DNA from: a virus | Virus record (IMG/VR): IMGVR_UViG_3300021378_000068 | Location: 1 to 38,516 of that record | Reading direction: 5' to 3' (one strand) | Length of the DNA stretch: 38,516 nt | In this document: positions 3,001 to 34,421 of the stretch, one piece after another | How positions within the stretch are numbered: the first letter of the stretch is position 1 | Layout: every line of letters starts with the position of its first letter | Notes under the pieces: model-generated | Told to the model about the DNA's origin: nothing | What the model saw: only the letters and a program-made list of their open reading frames with translations | The model's database searches: none | Translations under genes and position numbers: made by a program

Positions 3001-4539
3001 GATTATTATCCTAACCCTTGGCAGATGAAGATGGTTCATGTGTTCGGTACGCAATGGTCACATTGGGGTACAACATACCTAATTGCTAGAGAAACATTTA
3101 ATGATGACACCAAATACATTAACGTTATCGAACACTTAGACAATCTTAACTTTGTTAAAGACATCAGAGCAAGAGCAACTGAATGTGTTTACGATGTTGT
3201 AGTTGTCGATCATGGCAATAAACATACAGAAGCAGTTGTTAAACAATTACAAGAGAAAGCACCAAGACAACGTGTAAGCACGGTTGAACATGACACTGAT
3301 TACGTGACAACATTAAAGAATATTGTAGATAAACTACCAACACGGAAAGAGCATTACGTATGGATCGCATCATCTATTTGTGATTACGGCGACTTTGACT
3401 TGTCCTACATATGCGATCCTTTTGCACGTGATCAGTTACATGTTTTCCCAAGCAACAAACAAAAGTTTGGAGATACATTCTTTATAGACGTTAATAAAAC
3501 ACGTGAATTGATTGATGATATGGAATCATTAGAAGATTACGAGAAGATAAACTACAATCAAACACTGCGTACACAACGTCTGAGAGCGCCTGTAATCGTT
3601 TCTAAGAGTGATACGCATACTAAGTCGTTAAAAGATATCGATGAATTTCCTTATGTTACATTAGTATCAAAAACTGATGAAGACATACAAGTAGTAGATG
3701 AAGAACCTATGTCATTGTGGACAGCAGAGTCTAAAAACATTATAGTACAATCAACTGGAGCAACAAGAATTATAGTTCCACGTGAAGTTAAAGATCATGT
3801 AAAGAGAGAACTATATGAATACCCTTACATTAAGAATGCAAATCGTCTTGCACTATCGAAGCCGATGGATATTGTTTTCTTGTCGAACGGAGAGACTGGC
3901 GCAGAGGAAAATTGGGAGCATCTGCAACGCATTACAAAGAACATACCAAACAGAGTAGTAAGAGTAGATGGTGTTGATGGTCGTGTACAAGCATATCACG
4001 CATCAGCAGAAGCAAGTGAAACACCTTGGGCGTTTACTGTATTTGCTAAACTGAAAGTCTCTCCTAAGTTTGACTTTAACTGGCAACCAGATAGAATGCA
4101 ACAACCCAAGCACTATATTTTTGAAGCAAAGAATCCAGTCAATGGCTTAGTCTATGGACATCAGGCTATGATTGCATACAATAAAGAACTAACACTTGCA
4201 AACTATGGTTATGGCTTAGACTTTACATTAGATGACGAACATGCTAGTGTGCCCTTACTATCAGGCATAGCACAGTATAACACAGATGAGTTCTCTACAT
4301 GGCGTACAGCATTCAGAGAAGTGATTAAGTTATTAGTTGATGATACAGAGATTAGTAAGAAACGTTTAGAAGCATGGTTGAATGAAGCAGATCCAGATCA
4401 GCCTTTCTTCCAAGAATCTATCAAAGGTGCAATCTGTGGAGAAGAGTACTTTGAAGAAGTAGATGGAGACTTTGAGAAGTTACGTTTAAGTTATGAATGG
4501 AAGTGGCTTAAAGAACGTTACGAAGAAGTTTCATATTAA
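1..4539 (+). CDS. Giant FDFSW-repeat protein, 5'-truncated by the window edge
   Basis: The reading frame is open from base 1 and already reads repeat-like sequence before the first ATG at 79, so the true start lies upstream and the visible 1512 codons are a partial gene. Sixteen copies of a motif resembling W-x-[IL]-P-x-x-[IL]-D-x4-FDFSWHPD-x5-IYQFGTQWQKTGGP-x-Y-x-V-x-GA-x-EVKY are visible. The first twelve are spaced about 67 residues apart. Later copies are more degenerate and separated by longer inserts, such as FYVDRGN followed about 40 residues on by LLWILNS, and VVVVDHGN followed later by YVWIASS. These inserts look like the Rossmann and metal-binding parts of a GT-A glycosyltransferase, so the short repeats may be pared-down glycosyltransferase half-domains (inference). 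The last part (from about codon 1295 of the visible frame, MDIVFLSNG) is again glycosyltransferase-like. No signal peptide or membrane segment is visible. Its function is not recognised. It converges on the next gene, and the two stop codons overlap. Confidence 0.85.
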   Translation, partial: WGNQWNKVEDKVSIEFKVEGATEYQFMPETTVRMPSPINWTVPDNIQKYSFDFSWEPNPNEPAMIHEFATQHQKTGGPIYTVPGATETKYENIFYAIALPTEDKWEIPDNINKDLFDFSWHPDSTEPVPYIYHFPTQWAMSGGPIYRCDDAEEVKYVDAQQATAYHQMCNWEFDPKVIDESTFDFSWHPYAEDEPYIYQFGTQWQKTGGPKYITPGVHEGSAVKYIDTRILKATRLANANNFKVLNDYCIKGFDFSWHPDDTSDPFIYQFGNQYYSAEQMPTLEYRVIGADEVSYVNDLIATLGHDKTNWEIPTDIDVSEFDFSWKPNPNEPAMIHEFGTQWQKTGGPRYYVEGATEVKYEEQFKAVALSKKDNWTIPNNIDEKTFDFSWHPDATSPPYIYRFPTQWALSGGPIYTVEDAEEVKYVEDQVSKALPCKDNWEVDSKLIDEDDFDYSWHPYAEDEPFIYQFGTQWQKTGGHKYITPGAHEGSGIKYIDTRIIKSKRLPDPNNRHWGTLGNYQIKDFDYSWHHDETDEPFVYQFGNKYYSAEEMPTIEYRVVGAETVKYVHDVVATLEESVDGWEISDDLDTTGFDFGWRPSPLEDQPYIYQFGTQWQKTGGPKYIVEGALEVKYVEGNIAHKLPNQPCKWTIPEGIDIDGFDFSWHPDDLDEPFIYQFGTQWALTGGPTYTVDGATKIKYIEQPVATSLDSGDRTNWKVPQDIEDFDFSWHPYAEDDPFIYQFGTQHQKTGGPTYTVDGATDIKYVDTRIIKARKLANSKRMHWVVPGDLDVSKFDFSWHPDETADPAIYQFGSVVGKDDGPKYVQPGNDGKVLFLQSIEADNVIPDEIDVYFIETTLEDLVANHPDEVFWALNMDLVYTDFDFSWRPDVYQSNYIHAFGSKDNINTQTYFVNSAIFKDATINYVETDTIGEIQANLDMFYVDRGNKESKERFAKLQERYPNIQKTRYLNSWVETARRCINRSTTSLLWILNSELDYEEFDFDYYPNPWQMKMVHVFGTQWSHWGTTYLIARETFNDDTKYINVIEHLDNLNFVKDIRARATECVYDVVVVDHGNKHTEAVVKQLQEKAPRQRVSTVEHDTDYVTTLKNIVDKLPTRKEHYVWIASSICDYGDFDLSYICDPFARDQLHVFPSNKQKFGDTFFIDVNKTRELIDDMESLEDYEKINYNQTLRTQRLRAPVIVSKSDTHTKSLKDIDEFPYVTLVSKTDEDIQVVDEEPMSLWTAESKNIIVQSTGATRIIVPREVKDHVKRELYEYPYIKNANRLALSKPMDIVFLSNGETGAEENWEHLQRITKNIPNRVVRVDGVDGRVQAYHASAEASETPWAFTVFAKLKVSPKFDFNWQPDRMQQPKHYIFEAKNPVNGLVYGHQAMIAYNKELTLANYGYGLDFTLDDEHASVPLLSGIAQYNTDEFSTWRTAFREVIKLLVDDTEISKKRLEAWLNEADPDQPFFQESIKGAICGEEYFEEVDGDFEKLRLSYEWKWLKERYEEVSY
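151..2450 (+). repeat. Tandem FDFSW repeats in a four-unit higher-order array
   Basis: FDFSW-type cores begin near 151, 349, 547, 760, 961, 1156, 1357, 1570, 1774, 1975, 2170 and 2377, a period of about 200 bases. Units also recur by type every fourth copy. Copies 1 and 5 carry PNPNEPAMIHEF. Copies 2, 6 and 10 carry QWA[ML][ST]GGP. Copies 3, 7 and 11 carry HPYAED. Copies 4 and 8 carry YYSAE[QE]MPT. The higher-order period is therefore about 810 bases (270 residues), repeated three times, which points to block duplication of a four-unit cassette. The copies have diverged at synonymous and amino-acid level, so the duplication is not recent. Confidence 0.85.
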
Positions 4540-5674: not shown

Positions 5675-6037
5675 ATGAAGATAACAGGAACAAAGTTAGG
5701 TACTACATTAATTATAGCATTTTTTGCAATAATGATTGCTTGCCCGGTAAGTGCAGAGAAATCTGATGAACGACTTATACGTGAGAGTTCTAAAGCATAT
5801 ACAGGGGCAACTCGTATTATTGATGGCAAGATTGTAAAATATCCTCGTCATTATAGTTTACATACACATAAGAAACGTGGTAATTCTATGGTGCACATGG
5901 GTAGTAATGCAATACCTTACTACACTGGGTATGCTAGACATACGTATCATACTGAAGTTAAATACATTAAAGACGATGTAAATGACGCATTAGATACCGC
6001 AATTAAAATTCTAGTAATCAAAGAATTACTAGATTAA
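5675..6037 (+). CDS. Small exported protein, unknown function
   Basis: The start is set at the second of two close ATGs, because AAAGGA lies seven bases before it. An upstream in-frame ATG at 5585 lies inside the divergent promoter region and is rejected. The 120-residue product has a signal peptide: MKITGTK, then a hydrophobic core LIIAFFAIMIA, with a likely cleavage after PVSA. The mature part of about 90 residues is rich in His, Tyr and Lys, with no recognisable domain. It probably goes to the periplasm of the infected cell. The stop codon is almost directly followed by the tmRNA acceptor piece, so the two are probably co-transcribed from the late promoter at 5644. Confidence 0.7.
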   Translation: MKITGTKLGTTLIIAFFAIMIACPVSAEKSDERLIRESSKAYTGATRIIDGKIVKYPRHYSLHTHKKRGNSMVHMGSNAIPYYTGYARHTYHTEVKYIKDDVNDALDTAIKILVIKELLD

Positions 6038-6039
6038 AT

Positions 6040-6283
6040 TATTGTTGTATGAAGTGAAGTAAAAGGCACTTTGGACGCCGGTTCGACTCCGGCCACCTCC
6101 ACCAATAAACAGCAGAGGGGGTGTAAGGGATTCGACAGGGTGATTAGTAACGGAGCAGACAACACAGTAGGCGATGACTGTAAATCAAGCAAACACTATA
6201 ATTGACAACAATTATGAAATGGAAGATTACGCCCTAGCGGCCTAATCCCCCGAGGTCTAAGGTACCTCGTCACCGAACACCCA
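6040..6283 (+). ncRNA. ssrA: Permuted two-piece tmRNA (ssrA) gene
   Basis: The tRNA-like 3' part comes first and the mRNA-like part second, as in alphaproteobacterial permuted tmRNA genes. The acceptor piece (about 6040-6104) ends with a T arm, GCCGG-TTCGACT-CCGGC, then CACCTCC and an encoded ACCA. After a 12-base spacer the coding piece begins with GGGGGTG (6117-6123), which pairs with CACCTCC. This puts a G-U wobble at the third pair, the alanine identity element. GGGATTCGACAGG is the D-arm-like motif of tmRNAs. TGTTGT (6043-6048) can pair with ACAACA (6159-6164) as the joining helix. The tag frame starts at GCA 6189 and ends at TAA 6243-6245, giving ANTIIDNNYEMEDYALAA, with the YALAA degradation signal of proteobacterial tags. 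A stem-loop CGAGGT/ACCTCG follows. The exact ends of the two pieces and the resume codon are inferred. Confidence 0.93.
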
Positions 6284-6305
6284 GAGGGGCATTTATTTGC
6301 CCCTC
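6284..6305 (+). terminator. Hairpin terminator or processing stem after tmRNA
   Basis: GAGGGGCA and TGCCCCTC form a perfect 8-bp stem around a six-base loop TTTATT. The following sequence is not a clean U-run (GCCTATTTCG), so it may act as a 3'-end stabilising stem as much as an intrinsic terminator. Confidence 0.7.
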
Positions 6306-6314
6306 GCCTATTTC

Positions 6315-6322
6315 GATAAATA
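6315..6322 (+). promoter_or_regulatory. T4-type late promoter (GATAAATA)
   Basis: GATAAATA is followed by GATAT and then the ATG at 6328. The five-base gap predicts a leaderless mRNA for the nucleotidyltransferase gene. No Shine-Dalgarno sequence is present in between. Confidence 0.7.
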
Positions 6323-6327
6323 GATAT

Positions 6328-7713
6328 ATGAACATATCTGAACTAGAAAAATTCAAAATCGAAGATGCGATCAACTTCCACGATGAGTTGAATCCTTTGC
6401 TGTTTGATGAAAACAATAAATTGAAGCCAAACATCAAAAAACAATTAGAGATTATTACTGATGACTTTATTGAGTACATGGGTATACCTGATCTTGCAGT
6501 AGAAGATGTAATCATTACTGGTAGTAATGTTGCATTTACTTACACACCTCATTCGGATATTGATCTGCATCTACTTGTAGACTTTGCAGAACTACCAGAG
6601 TCAGATGTTTATAAAGAACTATTCAATGCTAAGAAGTCTTTGTATAATGACACATATGAAATTACTATCAGAGATATTCCTGTTGAAGTTTATGTACAAG
6701 ATACAGCACAATCACATACTAGTTTAGGCGAGTACAGTCTTATGCAAGATAAGTTTACTCGTTTCCCTAGCAAACAAAGAGCAAACTTAGATGAAATATC
6801 AGCAGAACATAAGTTTGAAAGATTAGAACAACTAGCAATCGAAGGATTAAAAGCAAAAGACATTGAAAAAGTAAACAATGTACTATCTATTATTAAAAGA
6901 TACAGACAAGCAGGTTTAGATAATAAAGGAGAGTTTGGTCCTGAAAACTTAGCATTTAAGGCTATCAGATCAAAAGGATACTTTCAAGCATTGTTTGATT
7001 TACGCAACAAGTTAAGAGCCCAACAACTATCTATTGAAGAAGAATTATTAAGAAGAACGTTTGAAGAATCTATTGGTGTCTATAATAGTAAAGTTAATTT
7101 AGCAGAAGATACAGTTGATGCGTTGGCACAAGAACATCATATTTCTTCTAAAGAAGCCGCAAGATATTTAGATAATGCTATCAAAGTAGAAATCTTTATG
7201 AATAAAAAAATAGACGATAGAGAAAAAGCAAAAGAAATTGTAATACCTAATCTTGCAAAAGACATTGAGTATTATGAAAAGATGATAACATTTTTACAAG
7301 CAGTTGAAAGAATAAATCAAGGTGCTATTAATGAAGAATATCAATATGCTTTATATGTTGATGGCAAACCCAATGTTAGAAGTCCAAATGAAGATGAAAT
7401 CAAACAGTATATTAAACATTTAAAATCTCAAGGTCACAAAGGCCCGTTTGATATTAAATACCAAGACTATGGTCCTAAAAGAACATCAACAACGATCGGT
7501 GAAGCATCAGGATACATTCCAAGTGAAGCAGAAAGAAATGATCCAAGATTTTCTAGGGCATTATCTGTAGACGTACACCCAGACACAATGAAGAAAGGTG
7601 CAAAAGCAATGGGACTTGGTGACATTGCACGTGACGGTCGTCCACCACTACTTAGACCGGGCAAAAAGAAAACTAAGAATTCTAAAACTGAATTTGGCAA
7701 AGGCATATATTGA
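6328..7713 (+). CDS. Polymerase-beta-type nucleotidyltransferase with conserved marine-phage C-terminal module
   Basis: The 461-residue protein has a nucleotidyltransferase core near residues 64-116. GSNVAFTYTPHSDIDLHLLV gives the GS motif and the paired carboxylates (DID), and DIPVEVY supplies the third acidic residue. These are the residues that bind Mg-NTP in the pol-beta superfamily, so the enzyme probably transfers a nucleotide to a protein, RNA or small molecule; the target cannot be read. The middle is helical. The C-terminus (about residues 385-450) reads EASGYIPSEAERNDPRF, then VDVHPDTMKKGAKAMGLG and GRPPLLRPGKKK, a module I recognise as recurring in T4-type marine phage proteins of unknown role. 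The start is fixed by the adjoining late promoter. It overlaps the next gene by four bases. Confidence 0.8.
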   Translation: MNISELEKFKIEDAINFHDELNPLLFDENNKLKPNIKKQLEIITDDFIEYMGIPDLAVEDVIITGSNVAFTYTPHSDIDLHLLVDFAELPESDVYKELFNAKKSLYNDTYEITIRDIPVEVYVQDTAQSHTSLGEYSLMQDKFTRFPSKQRANLDEISAEHKFERLEQLAIEGLKAKDIEKVNNVLSIIKRYRQAGLDNKGEFGPENLAFKAIRSKGYFQALFDLRNKLRAQQLSIEEELLRRTFEESIGVYNSKVNLAEDTVDALAQEHHISSKEAARYLDNAIKVEIFMNKKIDDREKAKEIVIPNLAKDIEYYEKMITFLQAVERINQGAINEEYQYALYVDGKPNVRSPNEDEIKQYIKHLKSQGHKGPFDIKYQDYGPKRTSTTIGEASGYIPSEAERNDPRFSRALSVDVHPDTMKKGAKAMGLGDIARDGRPPLLRPGKKKTKNSKTEFGKGIY

Positions 7714-14114: not shown

Positions 14115-15257
14115 ATGGCATCAAAGAAAAAACAAAAAGTTTTAGTTACCGGCGGTCTTGGATTCATCGGATCCCATGTTGTAGTTAAATTAATTAACGA
14201 AGGGCATGACGTTGCTGTTATCGATAACAAAACTAATTATGGTATTATAGATCAAACAGAACTTGATGCAGTTATGCAAGAAAGATTTTTTGGTATTGCA
14301 AACAGAATGACTGATGCGATTGATTTAAATATCTATACAATTGATGTTGCTAATCCTGAACTAAAAACTTTGTTTGAAAAAGAAAAGTTTGATAGTGTCA
14401 TTCATCTTGCAAGTTTCCCAAGACAGAAAGTAGTCAATGCTGATCCAACACAAGGTTCTAAAGTAATGAGTGAAGGCTTGTTAAACTTATTAGAACTAAG
14501 CAGACAAACAAAAGTAAAACGATTTACTTATATCAGTTCTTCTATGGTCTATGGAGACTTCACAGACAACGTAGAAGAATGGGAAGACTGTAACCCACAA
14601 GGTCAGTATGCAATTATGAAGTATGCTGGAGAGTTGTTAGTACAAGATTATACTAGACAATACGGATTAGAGCATACGATTATTCGTCCTAGTGCTGTTT
14701 ACGGACCCTTAGATGTTTGTGATAGAGTTATTTCTAAATTCTTTTACAATGCAATCAAAGGTGAAAAGTTAATCGTCAATGGTAAGATGGAGAAACTTGA
14801 TTTCACGTTTGTTAATGATCTTGCAGTTGGTATTGTACAAGCAAATCAATCTCTAAAAGCAATAAATGAGACATATAATCTTACAAGATCAAAGGGCGTA
14901 ACTCTTTATGATGCCGCACAATCAGTTAAAGATATTGTAGGTAAAGGTAACATTGAAGTTAAACAAAAAGATAAAGACTTTCCAAGTCGAGGTGCTTTGA
15001 GTATTCAGAAAGCACAAGATGATTTTGATTACAGTCCTGAAATGAATTTGAATGAAGGTCTAATGATTTACTATCATTGGTTTCTTAATTCTAAGTATTG
15101 GCAAGAACACTTTAATCCAAAACCTAAAGAAGTTAAAGTTGCCCCAGCAAAAGTTGCTAATGTTTCTAAAACAAAAGTAAAAACAAAAGCAAAACCTAAA
15201 GCAAAACCTAAAGCAAAACCTAGAGCAAAAGCAAAGCCAAAACCGAAGGCAAAATGA
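14115..15257 (+). CDS. NAD-dependent sugar epimerase/dehydratase with lysine-proline tail
   Basis: This is an extended short-chain dehydrogenase. The NAD-binding motif is GGLGFIGSH (13-21), the catalytic Tyr-Lys pair YAIMK is at 165-169, and SSSMVYGD precedes it. IIRPSAVYGP and a late DFTFVNDLA are family marks. It should act on a nucleotide sugar, epimerising or dehydrating it; the exact sugar cannot be read. Unusually, the last 45 residues form a low-complexity basic tail of KAKPKAKP units with no counterpart in normal epimerases. The gene overlaps the radical SAM gene by ATGA and heads a five-gene surface or sugar modification block. Confidence 0.85.
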   Translation: MASKKKQKVLVTGGLGFIGSHVVVKLINEGHDVAVIDNKTNYGIIDQTELDAVMQERFFGIANRMTDAIDLNIYTIDVANPELKTLFEKEKFDSVIHLASFPRQKVVNADPTQGSKVMSEGLLNLLELSRQTKVKRFTYISSSMVYGDFTDNVEEWEDCNPQGQYAIMKYAGELLVQDYTRQYGLEHTIIRPSAVYGPLDVCDRVISKFFYNAIKGEKLIVNGKMEKLDFTFVNDLAVGIVQANQSLKAINETYNLTRSKGVTLYDAAQSVKDIVGKGNIEVKQKDKDFPSRGALSIQKAQDDFDYSPEMNLNEGLMIYYHWFLNSKYWQEHFNPKPKEVKVAPAKVANVSKTKVKTKAKPKAKPKAKPRAKAKPKPKAK

Positions 15258-16468
15258 CCGAGTCGTTTTGTGTTTTACCTTGGGTAAATATCACAGTTGA
15301 TCCTGACGGGGCAATCAAGCCTTGTTGTATTTCACATGACTATATTAAAAAAGAAGATGGCACTAAGTTTAACTTAGGTTATGATTCTGTCGATGACATT
15401 TACAACAGTAAAGAATATGTCGAACTAAGACAAAAGATGTTAGATAATGAATACATACCTGGTTGCGATGTATGTTATCACAATGAAAAAACAGGACGTC
15501 AAAGTCGTAGACTTATTAATAATGAACAATACAAAGAAACTATTCCCACTAGTAGTGAAAGCAATTTAAAAATCAAATTCTTTGACTTACGTTTTGGTAA
15601 TCTATGTAATCTTAAATGTAGAATGTGTAGTCCTGCAAACAGCAATCAAATTGCAAAAGAAATCACAGAGATAAACAACAAAGAATATTCTAAGTTCTAT
15701 CCTGTATTTGATATCGATACTGATGAATGGTGGGAGACAGATACGTTTGATGATAATATCAAAAGTCAAGTAGATAATATAGACACAATTTATATGACTG
15801 GTGGAGAGCCTACTGTTATTGAAAAGAACTTTGAAATACTAAGGGACTTAATAGAATTAGATAAAAGTAAACACATTACATTAATTATTAATACAAATCT
15901 TACAAATACAAATCCAAGATTCTATCAATATCTACCTAACTTTAAATCAGTTATACTACAACTAAGTATCGATGGTTATGAGAAAGTACAAGAGTATCTA
16001 AGATATCCTAGCAAATTTAAACAGATCGATGAAAGCATACACAAACTTATAAAAATTCATAATGTTAAACTGTGGGCGACTCCTGTTATTCAGATAGGAA
16101 ATTTAAACACAATAGTTGATTTGTTTAAATACTTTGAAGACATTAACATTAAAGAAAACAAACCTTTAATTGATATTAGACCGATCTTATTGCAAGATCC
16201 ACAACACTTAAATATCGATTATTTACCTAAAGACTTTAAACAGAAAGCCTTTGCAAAAATCTTTATGTGGATGCTAAACGATTGTAAATGGCAATCACAG
16301 ATTTTTAAAGATACGATAAATGCATTGAAAGTAAAATGCCAAGAAGAAAGTAAAGACATAAACATGTTACAAGAATACATTAAGTTTAATAATATATTAG
16401 ATGAACACAGAGGACAAACATTAATAGATTGTAATGAAGAATTACATACACTATTAATGAACAATTAG
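15254..16468 (+). CDS. Radical SAM protein with auxiliary cysteine (twitch/SPASM-like) region
   Basis: The 404-residue enzyme has the radical SAM cluster CNLKCRMC (C118, C122, C125) and the SAM-binding TGGEPT motif about 55 residues later. A further cysteine set precedes the core: FCVLPW with C6, KPCC at 24-25 and CDVC at 71-74. This is a SPASM/twitch-like region that may hold an auxiliary iron-sulfur cluster, here at the N-terminus rather than the usual C-terminus. The reaction is unknown. Its position between a sugar epimerase and a methyltransferase/aminotransferase pair suggests modification of a sugar or peptide on the virion or host surface. Confidence 0.85.
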   Translation: MTESFCVLPWVNITVDPDGAIKPCCISHDYIKKEDGTKFNLGYDSVDDIYNSKEYVELRQKMLDNEYIPGCDVCYHNEKTGRQSRRLINNEQYKETIPTSSESNLKIKFFDLRFGNLCNLKCRMCSPANSNQIAKEITEINNKEYSKFYPVFDIDTDEWWETDTFDDNIKSQVDNIDTIYMTGGEPTVIEKNFEILRDLIELDKSKHITLIINTNLTNTNPRFYQYLPNFKSVILQLSIDGYEKVQEYLRYPSKFKQIDESIHKLIKIHNVKLWATPVIQIGNLNTIVDLFKYFEDINIKENKPLIDIRPILLQDPQHLNIDYLPKDFKQKAFAKIFMWMLNDCKWQSQIFKDTINALKVKCQEESKDINMLQEYIKFNNILDEHRGQTLIDCNEELHTLLMNN

Positions 16469-16470
16469 TT

Positions 16471-17145
16471 ATGACACAAAAACCATCATCGTTTGACCGT
16501 GTTAAATCAATATTGATGCAAGAAGTAAATTGGGCCCATATTGGTTTTAGTAAAAACAATAATAAAATATTAAAAGAATTGTATCAATTTTGGGCAGAAA
16601 GATACGATGAAGAAATGCCTACAATAGATTATAACTATACAGAGCCTATGAAGGAAGCATTTTTAAAATCTAATATTAAAACTGATTCCAAGATATTAGA
16701 TGCCGCATGTGGCACAGGGTACCCTACAATGGCATTATATGAAATGGGCTATAAGAATTTGCATGGTATAGATTTTTCTTCAGAGATGATACAAGAAGCA
16801 AAAAAGAAAAACATATACAAAAGTTTGACAGTAGCCGATTTAATTAATCCTATAGACTTTGCAACAGACACGTTTGATGTCATTATGTGTGTAGGGTTTT
16901 TAGCAAGTGGTCATATGGGAAGTGAACCACTAGATGAATTTATCAGAGTAATAAAACCAGGAGGACATTTGATTTGTTCTATAGGTGTAAACATATTTGA
17001 TACTGATGGGTTCGATAAAAAATTACAACAACTACAAGATGACAACATCATTCAGATAGATCATGTATCAGAACCTTTTGTAGTAGTACCCAAAGCAAAG
17101 TTTGGTAGTGCTAAATCTAAAATGTGGTCTCTTAAAATAACATGA
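16471..17145 (+). CDS. Class I SAM-dependent methyltransferase
   Basis: Motif I ILDAACGTGYP (about residues 70-80) binds S-adenosylmethionine, followed by NLHGIDFSSEMIQEA with the acidic ribose-binding residue and FDVIMCVGFL as the post-motif strand. At 224 residues it is close to the small-molecule methyltransferase norm. No target domain is visible. It sits two bases after the radical SAM gene and overlaps the aminotransferase by ATGA, so it works within the same modification operon. A sugar or lipid-linked substrate is likely, by context only. Confidence 0.85.
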   Translation: MTQKPSSFDRVKSILMQEVNWAHIGFSKNNNKILKELYQFWAERYDEEMPTIDYNYTEPMKEAFLKSNIKTDSKILDAACGTGYPTMALYEMGYKNLHGIDFSSEMIQEAKKKNIYKSLTVADLINPIDFATDTFDVIMCVGFLASGHMGSEPLDEFIRVIKPGGHLICSIGVNIFDTDGFDKKLQQLQDDNIIQIDHVSEPFVVVPKAKFGSAKSKMWSLKIT

Positions 17146-18251
17146 TTAAGTATTTTGGATTAGACAGACAATATATACAACTGAAAGATGAATTGCTTGA
17201 TGCAACTGATTCAGTATTATCCAGTGGTAGTCTTAATGACGGTGTATATGCACAGAAGTTTAAAGATTGGTTATCAATAAAAACTAAAGCACATTATGTA
17301 ATACTCTGTCATAGTGGAACACAAGCATTAGAAATCATTGCTCGTTATGAAAGAGATACATCTCCAGACCAAGACCCTTATGCAGAATGGGAATACGATA
17401 AAGAAACATATAGAACAATCAGAGTTCCTAATCTAACTTACCCTGCATCAATGAATGCATTTCTAAGTGCTGGACTTAATGTTGAACTAGCAGATACAGA
17501 TAGAAACGGTCTTTTGTTACCACAAGATGAAAATGAATTACAGAAGATTGAATGTCATGTAGGACTATTTGGAGCACCAACTGTAGCAGTAGAGAGTGAC
17601 AATGGTATTGCAGTATTAAACAATAACATTGCGATTGTAGACGGAGCACAACATTGGTTAATAGCAGACGGCAACATAGGCACTGCAATGGCAATTAGTT
17701 TTGATCCTACTAAAAATTTAAATGCTTCGGGTAATGGTGGAGCCATCGTTACAAACAATCAAGCACTATATGAATTTGCTAATCAATGGAGAGACAACGG
17801 TAAGCCTCATCATTTTTATTCTGGTACTAACAGTAAGATGAGTGAATTAGATTGTTCTCATTTATTAGTTAGAGCAAACTACATCGATGAATGGCAAGAA
17901 CGTAGAAAAGAAATTAGAAAATATTACATAGATCGATTTGATTATATTCGACCAATAAGATGTTTAAGTAAAGATTTTGAAACTCATGCTGATTCAAAGT
18001 TTGTAATCGATGTGGGGGCAGAACGTAATGAGTTAAAGCAATGGCTAGATAATAGAAATGTACAAACTAGAATACATTATGAACTACCATTAAGTGAATT
18101 ACCGATTGCGGATAATTTAACAAAACCTACGTTAATGTCTACTAGTAGTTTGGTAACAAGATCGTTTATAAGTCTCCCTTTGTATCCTGAAATGACTGAT
18201 GCAGAAATAGAAACAGTGGCAAACGAAGTTTGTCAATACTACGAGCCCTAA
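17142..18251 (+). CDS. DegT/DnrJ/EryC1/StrS-type PLP aminotransferase
   Basis: The 369-residue protein matches the sugar aminotransferase family. CHSGTQALEI is the phosphate-binding loop, DGAQHW contains the PLP-contacting Asp, and SFDPTKNLNASGNGG carries the PLP Lys (K191). The family transfers an amino group from glutamate to a keto-sugar nucleotide, so with the upstream epimerase/dehydratase it could make an amino sugar. The insert of about 25 residues near 66-90 (RDTSPDQDPYAEWEYDKETY) is unusual. Its stop codon overlaps the late promoter of the next gene. Confidence 0.87.
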   Translation: MIKYFGLDRQYIQLKDELLDATDSVLSSGSLNDGVYAQKFKDWLSIKTKAHYVILCHSGTQALEIIARYERDTSPDQDPYAEWEYDKETYRTIRVPNLTYPASMNAFLSAGLNVELADTDRNGLLLPQDENELQKIECHVGLFGAPTVAVESDNGIAVLNNNIAIVDGAQHWLIADGNIGTAMAISFDPTKNLNASGNGGAIVTNNQALYEFANQWRDNGKPHHFYSGTNSKMSELDCSHLLVRANYIDEWQERRKEIRKYYIDRFDYIRPIRCLSKDFETHADSKFVIDVGAERNELKQWLDNRNVQTRIHYELPLSELPIADNLTKPTLMSTSSLVTRSFISLPLYPEMTDAEIETVANEVCQYYEP

Positions 18252-23291: not shown

Positions 23292-24854
23292 ATGAGCAAC
23301 TTTAACACAAGTGGTACTGGCGAATTAGTCAAACCAGCATATAAGAAAACGCATTATAAAAATCAAAAAGAACTTGATGATTTTGTTAAGTGTTGTGATC
23401 CTGATACTGGTTACTTGTACTTCATGGATAATTTCTTTTATATACAGCATCCAACACAAGGTTCAATTCAATATCATCCTTATGAATACCAAGAACGTTT
23501 AATCAGTACATATCATAACTATAGATACTCTATTGCATTGATGCCTAGACAGTCAGGTAAGTCTACATCAGCCGCAGGTTATCTATTATGGTATGCAATG
23601 TTCGTATCTGATGCTACTATTCTAATTGCCGCACATAAGTACACAGGTTCACAAGAGATTATGCAACGTATTAGATATGCATATGAAAATTGTCCTAATC
23701 ATATTAAAGCAGGTGTCACTACCTATAACAAAGGCTCTTTAGATTTTGAGAATGGCTCTCGTATTGTGTCAGCAACGACTACAGAGAATACGGGTCGTGG
23801 TATGTCTATCACACTTCTATACTTAGATGAGTTTGCATTCGTAAGACCTACGATTGCAGAGCAGTTTTGGACTTCTATTACACCAACACTAGCAACAGGT
23901 GGTAAAGCAATCATCACATCTACTCCGAACTCTGACGAAGATCAGTTCGCATTGATTTGGAAAGGCGCAAACAAAAATATTGATGCACAAGGAGAAGAAA
24001 CAGAACTAGGTGTAAACGGATTTAAACCGTTTAGATCATATTGGAACGAACAACCAGGACGTGATGAAGCATGGGCAGAAGAAATTAAAGCCCAGTTAGG
24101 TGATGACAGATTTGCACGTGAGATTGGGTGTGAATTCTTAATTGCTGATGAAACATTAATCAATCCTAATACTCTTATCATGTTAGAATCAGTTGAACCT
24201 GTAAATAGAATGGGTCAAGTACGATGGTTTCAAACTCCTAAGAAAGGTATGGTCTATGTCTTGGGACTAGATCCGTCACTAGGTACTGGAGGAGATCCAG
24301 CCGCTATACAAATCTTTGAAGCAAACACTACTACTCAAATAGGAGAATGGAAAGATAATAAAACTGACATTCCTCAACAGATTAAGTTACTAGGACAGAT
24401 TACACAACATATAGCAGAACAAACAGGAGAACCAAACAGTATATATTACTCACTAGAAAACAATTCAATTGGAGAAGCCGCACTTATATCACTGTCAGAG
24501 TATGGAGAAGCAAACATTCAAGGTATCTTTTTAAGTGAAAAGGGTAAAAAACGTAGAGGATATAACACAACACAAAAAGTAAAACTTGCGGCCTGTGCTA
24601 AGATGAAAACATTGATGGAAAGCAAGAAAATGAATGTTAAAAGTAAAGCATTGATCAGTGAATTAAAAACATTTGTAGCATCTGGTGGCAGTTACGCCGC
24701 TAAGATTGGTGACAACGATGACTTAGTAATGGCTACATTACTTGTAGTACGTATATTACAAGACATTACAGACTTCCATAGTGATTTGACAGAGCATATG
24801 CGTGACCATGATGAAATGGTTGCACCCTTGCCGTTCTTTGCTGTGATTAGTTAA
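23292..24854 (+). CDS. 17: Large terminase subunit (gp17-type)
   Basis: The packaging motor ATPase-nuclease that pumps DNA into the prohead. The Walker A is MPRQSGKST (residues 84-92), Walker B is LLYLDE (175-180) and STPN is the coupling motif. The nuclease domain begins with GLDPSLGTGGD, which carries the first catalytic Asp, and ends with GDNDDLVMA. The length of 520 residues is shorter than T4 gp17 (610), mainly at the N-terminus. The late promoter directly abuts the ATG, and no ribosome site exists. No small terminase gene is adjacent. Confidence 0.95.
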   Translation: MSNFNTSGTGELVKPAYKKTHYKNQKELDDFVKCCDPDTGYLYFMDNFFYIQHPTQGSIQYHPYEYQERLISTYHNYRYSIALMPRQSGKSTSAAGYLLWYAMFVSDATILIAAHKYTGSQEIMQRIRYAYENCPNHIKAGVTTYNKGSLDFENGSRIVSATTTENTGRGMSITLLYLDEFAFVRPTIAEQFWTSITPTLATGGKAIITSTPNSDEDQFALIWKGANKNIDAQGEETELGVNGFKPFRSYWNEQPGRDEAWAEEIKAQLGDDRFAREIGCEFLIADETLINPNTLIMLESVEPVNRMGQVRWFQTPKKGMVYVLGLDPSLGTGGDPAAIQIFEANTTTQIGEWKDNKTDIPQQIKLLGQITQHIAEQTGEPNSIYYSLENNSIGEAALISLSEYGEANIQGIFLSEKGKKRRGYNTTQKVKLAACAKMKTLMESKKMNVKSKALISELKTFVASGGSYAAKIGDNDDLVMATLLVVRILQDITDFHSDLTEHMRDHDEMVAPLPFFAVIS

Positions 24855-24871: not shown

Positions 24872-27800
24872 ATGGCAATCGATCAGGAATCATTCAATAA
24901 ACGACTCTACGATATCTTTAAGACTCGTGGATACAAACCAGCACCTAAAGACTCAAAAAACGAAAGAACAAATCCGCAAACAGCAGATGTTTTTGAGTTT
25001 CAGTTTATTAAAGATGGTGAGAACTATGGTAAAGCATGGGCTACTATTGATAAAACATCATCATTAAATATCTATTATGATGACAAACAAGCAGGTTCCC
25101 CTCCAGGGCAGACTAAAGGTGTTGATTATGATGATTCATGGTCTGGATTACTGAAACATTTAAAGCAATGGGCATTATCAAAACAACTAAACTTTGGATT
25201 ACATGACAGTGATCGTTTAGGAGACGATATGCGTCAAAGGGACTATTACAAAATGAAAGAAAAAATGAACGAAGGTTATCATGCTGTTAATAAAACAACA
25301 TCATATAACGATAACATACCTAATGTCAAAGTTGTGATTCAACATGATAAGCAAATCGGTGAAGGAGAACAACGTTGGAGAAACGTACATAAGATATTTG
25401 TAGAAAACACTGGCGGAGAACGTTTTGCAGTCCCAACTAGAATGCCTGGCATTGCACGTGTATATGGTAGACACGTAGCAGAAGGTGGAACTCCTTATGA
25501 TGAAAGAGGCAAGCACATTACTCAATTAGTAGAAGAATACACTAAGATGGCTGGCTTTGTTCGTGCTACACGTAGAGGTGAATTTAACGAATCAGTTGCA
25601 AAACTTATTGCTGAGGGTGTACAACATCACAAATCATTAAAAGAAACATTACAAAAGATGCAAAGTCATAGAGGATACAATCATTACTTTGAAGAATGGA
25701 CACCTGCTCTTATGGAAGATGATACAGATTCATCAAGCATTGCAGAAATGTTCGCACAAGAAACAATCGATCCAAGAATCGAAAGTGTTTTACCTATCTT
25801 AAACAAACTTAATAGTAACATCATTAATGAAATTGAAGAAGTCAATGAGTTAGATGGATGGGCAAAAGAAATTACAGAAATGGCTGACGAATCAGTTGAA
25901 GAAGGTATAGTAGATAAGGCTATAGGTTCAGCCGCAGAAAAGATTGCATCTAATCCAGAAGTACAAAAACAAATTAGTGGCATGGCAAGTAGTGCAGGTA
26001 AATCTGCAGGAGATGCCGCAGTCAGTCAAGTTAATAAAGCAATCCCAGGTGCTGTAAACACAGCAACAGATCAAGCAATCGATAATCTTAAAGGCCCCGC
26101 AATGAAAGCCGGAGCCGCTGTTGCCGGAGCAACAGGTTTAGCCGCATATGGTGGAACTAAAATAGCAAACAAACAAGATGCTGAAAAAGAAATGACTACT
26201 GAAGGTGTATTCAATAAGTTAGTCGTTGATGCTATGGAAATGTCTGAAAAAGAATTTGCTGAAAAACATCCTGAAATGGCACATAGATATGATGACATTC
26301 TTGCCGCATTTAGTGATGACGATTTAAAAGACAGATTAAACAAACCCAAACAAGGTGAATTAGATTTAACTACGCAACAAGAACTTGATTTAAATGAATC
26401 TTACATGAGAAGTGTAATACAAGAAATTTCTGTACAAACGAATTACCCCCCGGTTGGAGTAGACACAGGTGCATTAGAAAAAGAAATGGAGCAGTGGGTT
26501 GGGTCTAAAAGAGCAGAAGTTGATGGAGATTCAAAGCAATTAATAAGAGCAATCAAGGCTAAAATGATGGACTTGCAAAATGAACGACAACGATCATCTT
26601 ATGCTGATGAAGCAAAAGAATTAGATATGAAAAAGAGAATTTTGCAAAAATATTTACGTATAGATATGTCCCCGGCAACTTCAGCAATGGATGCCGCAGA
26701 CAAAGAAGCAAGAGATAAAACAAATCCAGCAAACAAAGATCGATTATCTCCAAACATGAAAGATAGAGTTACTATTGGTAGAGCATTATCAGGAATTATA
26801 CCTACATTGTTTAATGAAGAAAGAACAGATGAATTTATGAGTAAAGATTTTGACGATGATAAACCAAATAGACCCAAGAAAGGTAAACTTGTAACTAAAG
26901 ACGGACAAGAAGTTGTTTTACCTTTAAGAACACAAGACTTTAGAGGTGATGAAATGATTGTCACTGGATACAAAGCACCTCATAAATACGGTTCAACAGG
27001 AAGAATCTATACTGATGACGGTATGAGTTACTTCCCGGGTGTAGCAGATTTAAAAATTATAGACCACGACTTTAGTGATGACGTAGATGAAGCACTTACA
27101 GGCAATCTTGCAGGATCAGTTGCTGGATCTCTATTAGGTGCCCCAGGTGGCATACCCGGACAGTTAGCAGGCGGCATTATCGGTGGAGTTGTAGGAGACA
27201 AAGCACAAGATAAGATTGATGATTTTGGCAAAGATGATGAAGAACTAAACGAAATTAAAAAACTTGCTGATTTAGGATCTGAAGATGATGACTTAGCAGA
27301 TGAAGAATCAGGCAAGAACCACGATCCAAAAACAGGCAAAAGAACTAAACCTCATCCGTTTGATCCTGAAGATGATCATTTACAAGAAGAATTAATAGAT
27401 GAAACAGATTTTTCAGATAAAGAAATCAGAATGGCATATGGCATTTTAAATGATCCTCGATATAAAGGTGGTAACATGGCAGGTGCAATCAAAGCAATTG
27501 AAGGCATCGCAAGTGGTTTATCAGAGCATCCAGGTGTTCAGAAAGCAATTTACAAGACTCAAAACGAGCCAGACAATTTAGAAGAATCTATTAGAGTAGG
27601 TAAGAAAGGATTCTATGTAAACATTGATCCGCGTACAGGCGAAGAGTCACCAATGACATTTTCACAATTTCAAAGTACATGGTATGATGAATTTAAAGAC
27701 GATCCAGAAGCACGTAATGTTTCTGCAAATGACTTATCACTCAAGTATGGAGTGTATATGGATCAATTAGGTGAACCACTTGACGAAACTAAAGCAGGTG

Positions 27801-28150
27801 GATATGATTTTGCTGGAGACTATAAAACAGGCAAAGCAGGTCAATGGAGAAACACAGGGCCGACTAAAGGTAGACCTGCAAAAGTAGGTGATTTAGTTGG
27901 AGCAGAAAGTAAACATGCAGACGATGAAATGTCTATTAGTCAAATGTCAGATGAAGATTTAGCAGACTATGTTGGTTGCAGTACAGAATATGCTAAAGCA
28001 AATAGAGATGAATGTGAAGAAGTTGCAAACGACAAATCAGCAGATCACGCACCTGACAATATGTTAGAAGACATCTTACGTCTAAGTGGTTACGAAAAGT
28101 ACGAAGGGAAAAGCACTGGTAAAGGTGCTGGCACGAAGTACACAGTTTAA
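24872..28150 (+). CDS. Large conserved T4-type marine phage protein with glycine-zipper segments
   Basis: This 1092-residue protein begins with RLYDIFKTRGYKPAPKDS and continues with DVFEFQFIKDGENYGKAW, GIARVYGRHVAEGG, QLVEEYTKMAGFVRATR and HRGYNHYFEEWTPALME. I recognise this N-terminal domain (about 290 residues) from T4-type marine phages; its function is not established to my knowledge. Downstream are long acidic and helical linkers and two Gly/Ala-rich stretches: GPAMKAGAAVAGATGLAAYG (near 408-432) and SVAGSLLGAPGGIPGQLAGG (near 746-783). The second is followed by IIGGVVGDKAQDKID, a glycine-zipper pattern that can insert in membranes. It may be a virion protein released on entry. Late and probably leaderless expression. 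Confidence 0.8.
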   Translation: MAIDQESFNKRLYDIFKTRGYKPAPKDSKNERTNPQTADVFEFQFIKDGENYGKAWATIDKTSSLNIYYDDKQAGSPPGQTKGVDYDDSWSGLLKHLKQWALSKQLNFGLHDSDRLGDDMRQRDYYKMKEKMNEGYHAVNKTTSYNDNIPNVKVVIQHDKQIGEGEQRWRNVHKIFVENTGGERFAVPTRMPGIARVYGRHVAEGGTPYDERGKHITQLVEEYTKMAGFVRATRRGEFNESVAKLIAEGVQHHKSLKETLQKMQSHRGYNHYFEEWTPALMEDDTDSSSIAEMFAQETIDPRIESVLPILNKLNSNIINEIEEVNELDGWAKEITEMADESVEEGIVDKAIGSAAEKIASNPEVQKQISGMASSAGKSAGDAAVSQVNKAIPGAVNTATDQAIDNLKGPAMKAGAAVAGATGLAAYGGTKIANKQDAEKEMTTEGVFNKLVVDAMEMSEKEFAEKHPEMAHRYDDILAAFSDDDLKDRLNKPKQGELDLTTQQELDLNESYMRSVIQEISVQTNYPPVGVDTGALEKEMEQWVGSKRAEVDGDSKQLIRAIKAKMMDLQNERQRSSYADEAKELDMKKRILQKYLRIDMSPATSAMDAADKEARDKTNPANKDRLSPNMKDRVTIGRALSGIIPTLFNEERTDEFMSKDFDDDKPNRPKKGKLVTKDGQEVVLPLRTQDFRGDEMIVTGYKAPHKYGSTGRIYTDDGMSYFPGVADLKIIDHDFSDDVDEALTGNLAGSVAGSLLGAPGGIPGQLAGGIIGGVVGDKAQDKIDDFGKDDEELNEIKKLADLGSEDDDLADEESGKNHDPKTGKRTKPHPFDPEDDHLQEELIDETDFSDKEIRMAYGILNDPRYKGGNMAGAIKAIEGIASGLSEHPGVQKAIYKTQNEPDNLEESIRVGKKGFYVNIDPRTGEESPMTFSQFQSTWYDEFKDDPEARNVSANDLSLKYGVYMDQLGEPLDETKAGGYDFAGDYKTGKAGQWRNTGPTKGRPAKVGDLVGAESKHADDEMSISQMSDEDLADYVGCSTEYAKANRDECEEVANDKSADHAPDNMLEDILRLSGYEKYEGKSTGKGAGTKYTV

Positions 28151-28160
28151 GGAGACTACT

Positions 28161-28211
28161 ATGAATACTAAATGCGAATGTTGTTCATGTTGTAACTGCA
28201 CTTGTTGCTAA
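28161..28211 (+). CDS. 16-residue cysteine-rich micropeptide
   Basis: A 17-codon reading frame starts at ATG 28161, ten bases after the previous stop, with AAGGAGA ending five bases before ATG. The product is MNTKCECCSCCNCTCC: eight cysteines in sixteen residues, arranged as in metallothionein clusters, so it could bind Zn, Cu or Cd. The ribosome site is among the best in the window, which argues for translation. An alternative is a cysteine-codon leader that controls the bL33 gene seven bases downstream. It has no other neighbours of the same type. Confidence 0.7.
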   Translation: MNTKCECCSCCNCTCC

Positions 28212-28218
28212 GAGATAA

Positions 28219-28422
28219 ATGGCAGACAAGAAAAAGAAACAATCGAAAGTTTATATGATACCAGAGTGTGAGACTAGAAACTCTCACACTTATCATTACA
28301 CCGCAATCAAAACAAAAAACTTGACTGTTAGTAATACTAAATTAAGATTTAAGAAATATAATCCAGTTAAAAGAATACATGAGTGGTTTGTAGAAGCAAA
28401 ACTACCCCCTCACACTAAGTAA
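28219..28422 (+). CDS. rpmG: Ribosomal protein bL33
   Basis: The 67-residue protein ends with KLRFKKYNPVKRIHEWFVEAKL, which matches the bL33 C-terminus (KKYDPVxRxHVxFKExK in alphaproteobacteria). The N-terminus is short and Lys-rich (MADKKKKQSKV), with a TAIKTKN segment in the middle where family members read TxKNxRT. It lacks the zinc-binding Cys pairs of the C-plus form, as in many proteobacterial L33s. bL33 sits near the E site of the large subunit. Phage-encoded ribosomal proteins are known from marine and other phages (bS21 and bL12 most often), bL33 less often. The start is coupled to the micropeptide stop. Confidence 0.85.
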   Translation: MADKKKKQSKVYMIPECETRNSHTYHYTAIKTKNLTVSNTKLRFKKYNPVKRIHEWFVEAKLPPHTK

Positions 28423-32900: not shown

Positions 32901-33072
32901 CTGCAAAGTAAAGATCATACAGATTGTATAAATTACCGTAGTTGTCTGTTGTACTATAGATAGTATTAGTACCATCTGCATTAGATTGACCGTAGTTTGG
33001 TGCGGTCTGTGCTACAACTAAACTAGATGATACTAATAGTAATAATGCTGATATTATTTTGAATCGTGCCAT
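29968..33072 (-). CDS. Large exported, acidic, low-complexity protein
   Basis: This 1034-residue protein has a clear signal peptide (IISALLLLVSSSLVVA, cleavage before QTAPNY). An N-terminal domain (about 50-290) contains FGFSWEWHNESFTHGL and NTLFPFYTDLIYAD, which recalls nidogen-like extracellular domains, and DNVDNDGDGSAD and DNDDDGCTD, which look like calcium loops. Three Cys repeats (CQSNPLYSTDC, CDIDPQSSESC, CEIDPMSDPSC) follow. The middle is Glu-rich coiled coil (about 600-700), then Ser/Gly-rich (about 705-850). The C-terminus (QTIAVAYIGYTAGFSAYTGE onward) is folded. A signal peptide on a large phage protein suggests periplasmic or surface delivery. It overlaps the upstream gene by 19 bases. 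Confidence 0.75.
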   Translation of the reverse strand: MARFKIISALLLLVSSSLVVAQTAPNYGQSNADGTNTIYSTTDNYGNLYNLYDLYFADDDTNNGVTKCQFADDTGCNVTGEFGFSWEWHNESFTHGLMSTNGCLKLLTSSSFSSSDYCGDYTPNQLGSGQNGYTKTATNTLFPFYTDLIYADMEKTGTEDSAMMFKAFDDYVIFGWYYMAEFGYHNNSTASSNSFELYLFDYNDSRTVCGDNDDDGCTDAERANVNKPDNYGFLYRELDIKNHDVLIGEQKNTTNYTQYLFYDDNVDNDGDGSADMTFDEMDDGYLEDGGGIFYSEASGEPVQCQSNPLYSTDCLLYDIAFQEAQCDIDPQSSESCTFYQALEDDAGLACEIDPMSDPSCPGYQQAIDFATDPNFDSSTGLVTDPTTGLTYSVSGPVDDNSWVEYDENSGPRFDDHYGDDGGYDEPWMVDGNYDPRLDPNISYDDLNTEQQMLVDQGLSPQDAMFVTMGQEQIAALGEDPLAVQFNGHRPGEYVLETVGGLENYDTELHDEAMLEQALEWDPSGQIVMLTADVWATDEFQQEETERLDGMVETYGEDFYTFTDQDWYEHDVETYGQEEVDRWHENIEFDENEMIIWETFVPGAPEEEVWIVEENELMPDYTEEEIFIESDEVFELIVEDEAFEELISEEELEELIAEESPEEIREEEVFEEQQLVIAEEIEEQEEEQEEVREEVALEEVRVEKEAEQAVQSSGSGSSSSSKKRTSYQSVAIAQYVSEISDDTQTANVIEDVISDSSSAGSISYGVDGGSQSFAGQDGSGSFSGGSSGSSAGASSAGSGGSSESTGVVADSSSQQQFEQVTGQVDTSIDVASTSVDVVSTSAFEVAEQQQESMQEEQLFVESFDDGSSGVSSTDMQFEDSLTDALASGTGLTEFLSQQTPDYGKFEVQNSMQEQRTTDAVESLADSVGAEVAQANLEAQLQNIQDGEPTEEGGYADQTIAVAYIGYTAGFSAYTGEQVYSQGNAGFFDTKQMPDGKIDDNKMGFYRMAGNTQEKLYKMVLMQYGINPDEETQEQK

Positions 33073-34421
33073 TCTGCCTCACAACTCTTAGTAGATTTAC
33101 GTCTTCCTTTAAAGTCAGGTCTAGTACATTTTTCTATATAAGCGGCTTCATCAGCAGTTACGTTTGATATTTTATCAACTTCAATTTTGTTAGAACTAAA
33201 CACGCCTAAGACTTTACTCTTAACGCCTTTCTTTTGATCAGGACGTCTGTCTTCATTTTCTTCCCATTGATCAGAAGCGGCTGGTCCAATTGCACCCATG
33301 TACGGACAAGGTGTTCCTGCCATTTCCATTGCTTGAAATACTCTAGGATCCTGACACATTAATGATACTGCGGCTACTTTCATACCCATATCATATATTG
33401 TTTTGGATAACTTAATTCTTTCACAGTTCATATCTCTAACTGACTTACCACCTGATAAGCCGAATACTTGACCCTGAAACGCTCCTGACACACCTGTTGT
33501 ACATAAGTCTTGTGAATAACTAGACCCGATACTCGGTGCAATCGCACTTGCTGGTGGTGCCTTAGTTGTGATCTCTTGTTTAATAGTTTGATCAGTTTTG
33601 TTTATGTTGGTGTTATTATTGGTATTAGTGTTTTCGTTTTTGTTTTCTGACTTGTTATTAGTCGTTACATTAGAATCACTTGTACTGGTCGAAGTGTTAT
33701 TGTTGTTATTGGTATTGTTTGAGGTCGAATTGTTATTGTTGTTATTAGTATTGGTATTATTCGATGTAGAATTACTGTTACTGTTAACATTTTGGTCAAT
33801 TGTCGAATTGTTATTATTAGTATTTGTGTTATTGGAAGTACTGTTCACCGTACTATTGTTAGTATTGTTATTGGTGTTATTACTGGTTGTGTTATTGGTA
33901 TTATTGTTGGTGTTAGTATTGGTATTATTACTAGTATTATTATTAGTGTTGGTATTGTTGTTGGTATTGTTGTTGGTACCGCTATACGTTGTATTATTAG
34001 TATTGCTATTGGTATTGCTACTAGTATTATTACTGGTATTATTATTAGTATTCGTATTGGTACTGGTATTTGTATTATTGTTAGTGTTGGTATTAGTACT
34101 GGTGTTAGTATTGGTGTTAGTATTGGTGTTATTGTTGGTATTGTTATTAGTATTATTATTAGTATTGGTGTTAGTATTGGTATTATTATTGGTATTCGTA
34201 TTGGTACTAGTATTCGTATTAGTCGAAGTATTAGTATTGGTACTGGTATTGTTGTTCGTATTGTTGTTCGTATTTGTATTGGTAGTAGTGGTTGTGGACG
34301 TACTCGCCTCACAATTCTCTGTACCTGCTGTACAGGTGCCAGTAGCCTGAGCATAAATATTTTCGCTGGCAAATACCACACTAAATAATATTAGTGCGAT
34401 TCTCATATGTTTGAAATGCAT
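33054..34421 (-). CDS. Exported Asn/Thr-repeat protein
   Basis: The 455-residue protein has a signal peptide (MRIALILFSVVFASENIYA, cut before QATGTC). About 230 residues (41-274) are almost pure Asn and Thr (TNTNNNTN-type), with some Ser. The C-terminal domain (about 275-455) is conserved-looking with six or seven cysteines: DLCTTGVSGAFQGQVFGLSG, DMNCERIKLSKTIYDMGMK, LMCQDPRVFQAMEMAGTPCP. I recall this C-terminal domain from other marine phages with a similar repeat, but no function is known. The start is set at 34421, after AAGGAAA. It is first in the minus-strand operon from the late promoter at 34459. Confidence 0.75.
   Translation of the reverse strand: MHFKHMRIALILFSVVFASENIYAQATGTCTAGTENCEASTSTTTTTNTNTNNNTNNNTSTNTNTSTNTNTSTNTNTNNNTNTNTNTNNNTNNNTNNNTNTNTNTNTSTNTNTNNNTNTSTNTNTNNNTSNNTSSNTNSNTNNTTYSGTNNNTNNNTNTNNNTSNNTNTNTNNNTNNTTSNNTNNNTNNSTVNSTSNNTNTNNNNSTIDQNVNSNSNSTSNNTNTNNNNNNSTSNNTNNNNNTSTSTSDSNVTTNNKSENKNENTNTNNNTNINKTDQTIKQEITTKAPPASAIAPSIGSSYSQDLCTTGVSGAFQGQVFGLSGGKSVRDMNCERIKLSKTIYDMGMKVAAVSLMCQDPRVFQAMEMAGTPCPYMGAIGPAASDQWEENEDRRPDQKKGVKSKVLGVFSSNKIEVDKISNVTADEAAYIEKCTRPDFKGRRKSTKSCEAEWHDSK
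33600..34301 (-). repeat. Asn/Thr low-complexity coding repeat
   Basis: Minus-strand codons alternate AAT/AAC with ACT/ACC/ACA. The repeat has mixed synonymous codons rather than one perfect nucleotide unit, so protein composition is kept while the DNA drifts. It generates long antisense Val/Leu and Ile/Val frames that are artefacts. Confidence 0.9.

Follow-up and report, generated by a model that had tools for sequence, protein, structure and literature searches.

Known cysteine-rich peptides and phage accessory genes

Metallothioneins (animal, fungal and the bacterial SmtA/MymT) combine a very high cysteine content with CxC, CxCC and CCxCC motifs (CCSCC occurs in the mammalian metallothionein alpha domain), polar linkers and the lack of a hydrophobic core, and reach a length of ~25 aa or more. 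The phage micropeptides analysed here have these features in common with them (Cys-rich, repeated CxC/CC, no hydrophobic core), and differ in being encoded by phage genes, in measuring 13-22 aa and in consisting of about half cysteine; furthermore, four members of 20-22 aa gave no match in Pfam, PHROGs, NCBIfam or PDB sequences. As no metallothionein profile was matched, we describe the peptides as probably working like metallothioneins, and not as belonging to them.

Polycysteine short ORFs of mycobacteria have been reported to control a downstream gene (Canestrari et al. 2020, cited in PMC9094748), and the phage micropeptides resemble them in being short Cys-rich ORFs located upstream of genes. 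The mycobacterial ORFs lack a leader, act in cis and are bound to particular operons, whereas the phage micropeptides have strong Shine-Dalgarno sequences (SD), rigid Cys spacing and unrelated downstream genes, some being followed by a tmRNA, a terminator or a promoter. Phage-encoded bL33 has already been reported in aquatic phages (Mizuno et al. 2019, PMC6375957); the bL33 of the locus studied here belongs to this reported group, while the micropeptide stands outside it and is lacking in most bL33 loci. Genes for Fe-S assembly (A-type carrier, IscU) are also known from phages (PMC5332604), and several micropeptides lie directly beside such genes; on the other hand, most Fe-S loci are devoid of a micropeptide, and none was found in the text searched. 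No description of phage peptides of this kind was found in the literature searched.

The micropeptide locus

The window (i.e. the whole stretch of DNA that was analysed, 38,516 nt) is a 38.5-kb uncultivated virus contig with a T4-type terminase and gp32-like and RecA-like genes. Its features are as follows:

6012-6336, + strand: permuted tmRNA of the phage (Rfam tmRNA_permuted, E=5.7e-26; tag given by ARAGORN, DNNYEMEDYALAA)
24872..28150, + strand: 1092-aa phage protein ORF with no assigned function, following immediately after the T4-type terminase (23292-24854)
28149..28154, + strand: Shine-Dalgarno AAGGAG of the micropeptide, read from the sequence; the same SD type stands before nearly all family members
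28161..28211, + strand: micropeptide ORF MNTKCECCSCCNCTCC (ATG 28161, TAA 28209-28211), read from the sequence, with ~46 distinct phage relatives among the matches listed
28219..28422, + strand: divergent bL33 gene, 67 aa, one Cys (Pfam PF00471 E=5.6e-5; 63 viral relatives)

The original prediction had placed a Cys-rich 16-residue ORF, equipped with a strong ribosome site, seven bases ahead of a bL33 gene, and this was confirmed at the exact coordinates: MNTKCECCSCCNCTCC comprises 16 residues, eight of them Cys (pattern MxxxC-x-CC-x-CC-x-C-x-CC), its SD is situated 6 nt from the ATG and overlaps the upstream 1092-aa ORF at its stop codon (28148-28150), and 7 nt separate its own stop from the bL33-like ATG. 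The assignment of the 67-aa gene to bL33 is sound but weak, judging from profile scores below the cut-offs (PF00471: 23.8 bits, cut-off 25; TIGR01023: 19.3 against a cut-off of 23.95) and from the similarity to PDB bL33 chains (E=0.006). This bL33 was predicted to lack the zinc Cys pairs and does so (zero CxxC pairs), a condition that we regard as ordinary, since the aligned PDB bL33 chains are also without Cys in the aligned part.

Elsewhere in the window, a gene run on the + strand (14115-18251) appeared by eye to be sugar epimerase-, radical-SAM (CNLKCRMC)-, methyltransferase- and aminotransferase-like; a 455-aa protein on the - strand (33054-34421) has a signal-like start followed largely by Asn/Thr repeats; and a long protein of repeated units (1-4539, + strand; FDFSWHPD and YQFGTQW motifs) is cut by the window end. 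In some relatives, the micropeptide directly precedes a tmRNA.

A phage family of poly-cysteine micropeptides

By its Cys spacing, the window peptide falls within a family of tiny, half-cysteine phage peptides that had so far gone unnoticed. They follow the pattern M(x)0-5-CxCCxCCxCxCC(x)0-1 or a close variant of it, and each is preceded by an SD. The family comprises at least ~46 distinct peptides (49 less three alternative starts) of 13-22 aa, nearly all with 8-9 Cys (~40-60% of residues), carried at unrelated genome locations by uncultivated, mostly marine phage contigs. A first loose scan, in which the viral collection was searched for the Cys spacing with a stop after it, returned real peptides mixed with microsatellites and TGC/TGT-type repeats, which dropped out once an SD and a short frame were demanded; with SD and ATG required, at least 45 stretches showed the Cys spacing, 42 of them real. 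Relaxing the C-terminus yielded further types (an extra last residue, i.e. CxCCxCCxCxCCG/E/S/D; CxCCxCCxCxCxxCC; CKCCKCCTCTCPECN; CDCCNCCDCGCGC). The counts obtained from the viral-collection scans are lower bounds, and the family is larger. The reversed Cys spacing, searched in phages in the same way, gave a single match, which was out of frame, and none in frame. Moreover, a de novo scan covering phage loci with a total of 2.86 Mb (SD, ATG, 10-32 aa, at least 25% Cys) recovered 53 peptides, most of this family, against zero SD-preceded Cys-rich short frames in the same sequences reversed; as most of these loci had been retrieved with the peptide pattern itself, the 53 are not a background rate, and only the reversed control is informative.

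In the collections searched, the family is confined to phages: among 84,980 genomes of bacteria and archaea, the combination of SD and Cys pattern occurred once, in a microsatellite. Among cultured phages (50,697 records), blastn and tblastn with single or pooled peptide genes produced chance matches only, at the attainable sensitivity. Two of these were rejected as cultured carriers, one in HTVC104P (running antisense to gp55) and one in Enterococcus (no start codon in the short frame), and no micropeptide was present in HTVC008M and Melnitz, both scanned whole.

Selection on the encoded peptide

In loci that were fetched by bL33, NfuA or IscA (i.e. not by the peptide), the Cys columns accumulated at least 11 synonymous and 0 non-synonymous changes (P ~3e-9 at kappa 2), with the reservation that the columns were extracted by the Cys pattern, by which a copy with a lost Cys could be missed; no decayed copies were seen in the sequences upstream of bL33 and IscA, inspected in full. 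The four linker positions, in loci likewise fetched without the peptide pattern, vary in amino acid and remain polar, and in the distinct cores 128 of the 132 linker residues are K/T/N/E/S/D/Q/R, the rest being G, A and I. Upstream of IscA, one locus harbors a replacement:

L413 546-593, + strand: Cys-rich micropeptide of another type, MCTCQVCNCSPCRCG, occupying this slot ahead of IscA

In the close relatives L411, L412 and L414 this slot is empty. The replacement of the poly-Cys peptide by MCTCQVCNCSPCRCG is what would be expected if a Cys-rich peptide itself were the selected product, and it suggests that further families with other spacings exist. Given its SD and the purifying selection at the amino-acid level, we consider the 16-codon ORF to be a real protein-coding micro-gene, which is presumably translated.

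Independence from bL33

The micropeptide was found upstream of bL33 in six of the 63 phage bL33 loci (L001, L002, L006, L014, L015 and L019), at a distance of ~113 nt from bL33 in the last three. In four others (L003, L004, L009 and L010) the same upstream gene leads directly into bL33 and the entire cassette of SD, ORF and stop is missing, and the colinear loci L005 and L006 differ by the same clean absence/presence; the missing segment amounts to ~55-70 bp, and the 1092-aa upstream gene is present in colinear loci both with and without the micropeptide. A role as bL33 accessory was rejected on these grounds. The original prediction had considered a link of the peptide to bL33 and to zinc release from ribosomal proteins, which is at odds with its occurrence in 6/63 loci and with its more than 20 unrelated neighbour genes. 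It had also proposed that loss of the frame in relatives sharing the bL33 neighbourhood would speak against it: in this check, set beforehand, the frame proved not to be kept with bL33, but every copy that is present is intact and retains all eight Cys. Since the cassette is gained and lost independently of bL33, the prediction is in this respect partly contradicted, and on this evidence we regard the bL33 neighbour as not functionally tied to the micropeptide.

Gene neighbourhoods and alternative readings of the ORF

Among the matches listed, the micropeptides are flanked by 24 upstream and 23 downstream gene clusters, which include bL33, PhoH-like, exonuclease, cytidylyltransferase-like, small phage and Fe-S proteins (the PhoH-like and exonuclease assignments being based on sequence and on tblastn against annotated phage exonucleases). 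Two large phage contigs, unrelated to each other (L280/L494 and L234/L495), have a micropeptide that stops a few nt before the 5' end of a tmRNA, the one in L234 being also called by ARAGORN. A permuted tmRNA lying over the L280 peptide was rejected, as in the full region an ordinary tmRNA begins directly behind the stop of the peptide and is overlapped by a weaker permuted match. An 11/12 sigma-70-like promoter is located between the micropeptide and the next gene in L209 and L068 (the latter with a short terminator-like hairpin also 3' of the micropeptide), a terminator-like hairpin with a T-run follows the micropeptide in L284/L497, and in L196 a convergent gene faces it.

That the ORF is non-coding (i.e. 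a chance ORF or a conserved DNA/RNA element) might be argued from its extreme shortness and from the well conserved nucleotide sequence of its 3' end within the bL33 group; we hold this to be highly improbable in view of the SD at the right distance, the empty reversed-sequence and in-frame reversed-spacing controls, the exclusively synonymous change of the Cys codons and the codon-sized changes of the linkers, and an RNA element or attenuator was rejected for want of a fold signal and of an Rfam match at the site. A Cys-codon leader, in which ribosomes stalled at the eight Cys codons under scarce Cys-tRNA would control the downstream gene (bL33 in the window, as the original prediction also entertained), has the following in its favour: Cys codons are dense and conserved (a constraint that by itself would fit a Cys-responsive leader too), the micropeptide often lies close upstream of another gene, and one member (L284/L497) has a terminator-like hairpin behind it. 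We nevertheless judge it unlikely. The downstream clusters (~23) are unrelated and share no conserved controlled gene, and the tmRNAs, terminators, promoters or convergent gene found downstream of several members mean that a leader controlling the next gene cannot explain all of them. Furthermore, stalling needs neither fixed spacing nor polar linkers, the strong SD is not that of a leaderless start, the fold z-scores are ordinary (-0.50 to 0.10 in the three members folded, window included), and in the window the stop-to-start gap of only 7 nt leaves no room for an attenuator; a leader for bL33 is thereby disfavoured.

Proximity to Fe-S carrier genes

Pfam-confirmed neighbours of the peptides include IscA (L220, L234 and L245), IscU (L234 and L245) and NfuA (L230 and L291). 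A gene for an A-type Fe-S carrier (PF01521) is present in nine of 50 peptide-bearing records, and in six of the nine the gap to the peptide is 10-433 bp; placement within 450 bp (6/9) compares with 0.41 expected by random placement (P ~6e-8, or ~1e-6 after collapsing homologous contexts), the link having been noticed first and tested after. Among phage NfuA loci, 7/9 have an adjoining peptide (after NfuA in six, before it in L405). The adjacency to IscA, NfuA and IscU is thus above chance, in a post hoc comparison and in a minority of all contexts: the peptide is absent from 79/80 phage IscU loci and from ~60/64 IscA loci, the majority of family members have no Fe-S gene nearby, and the window record contains no PF01521 gene. 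This proximity suggests metal or Fe-S handling, and it may also arise if accessory genes merely share insertion spots.

A proposed metallothionein-like function

By computation, the family exists, is restricted to phages in the collections searched, shows constraint at its Cys codons, occurs independently of bL33 and is enriched beside Fe-S carriers. The reading that we find best, and to which we incline by a modest degree, is that of a stand-alone micro-gene cassette encoding a metallothionein-like thiolate micropeptide that would buffer or deliver metal; its translation, its metal binding, the identity of the metal and any role in Fe-S assembly are what we infer from these observations. The metal-binding peptide of the original prediction is consistent with the rigid Cys spacing, the polar linkers and the peptide-level constraint, and thus survives in this form, detached from ribosomal zinc and bL33. 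A self-contained cassette (SD, ATG, 13-22 codons and stop) would be gained and lost by phages at gene junctions, and its predicted soluble product would present eight Cys within 12 residues at the fixed CxCCxCCxCxCC spacing, with polar linkers and almost no hydrophobic residues. By analogy with established metallothionein chemistry, such a peptide most plausibly folds only around metal and, like a minimal metallothionein, would enclose one or a few thiophilic ions (Zn, Cu(I) or Fe) within its cluster of thiolates; it could then buffer or pass on metal during infection and, in a subset of phages, may serve the phage-encoded Fe-S carriers (IscA/NfuA/IscU).

A small effector with another thiol job (redox buffering, host-enzyme inhibition/zinc stripping or anti-defence), for which metal binding would be incidental or absent, would agree with the phage-only distribution, the very small size, the accessory-style gain and loss and the different neighbourhoods. 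We consider it rather doubtful, as a spacing that is fixed for all eight Cys across unrelated phages points to a defined thiolate geometry and not to generic thiols, and as Fe-S carriers are recurrent neighbours. Building on the metallothionein-like reading, we tentatively advance a broader proposal, to which we give less credence than to that reading itself: the peptides might form a phage-exclusive class of the smallest encoded metal-thiolate peptides, borne on ~60-bp cassettes and feeding or protecting Fe-S assembly, or stripping host metal, in marine bacteria.

As genes this short escape gene callers, the finding of the family by Cys spacing alone suggests that functional phage peptides exist well below the usual length limits. 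If they bind metal, these peptides would rank with the smallest metallothionein-like molecules that genes encode, and it would become testable whether phages manage the metal and Fe-S supply with peptides besides the IscA, NfuA and IscU proteins.
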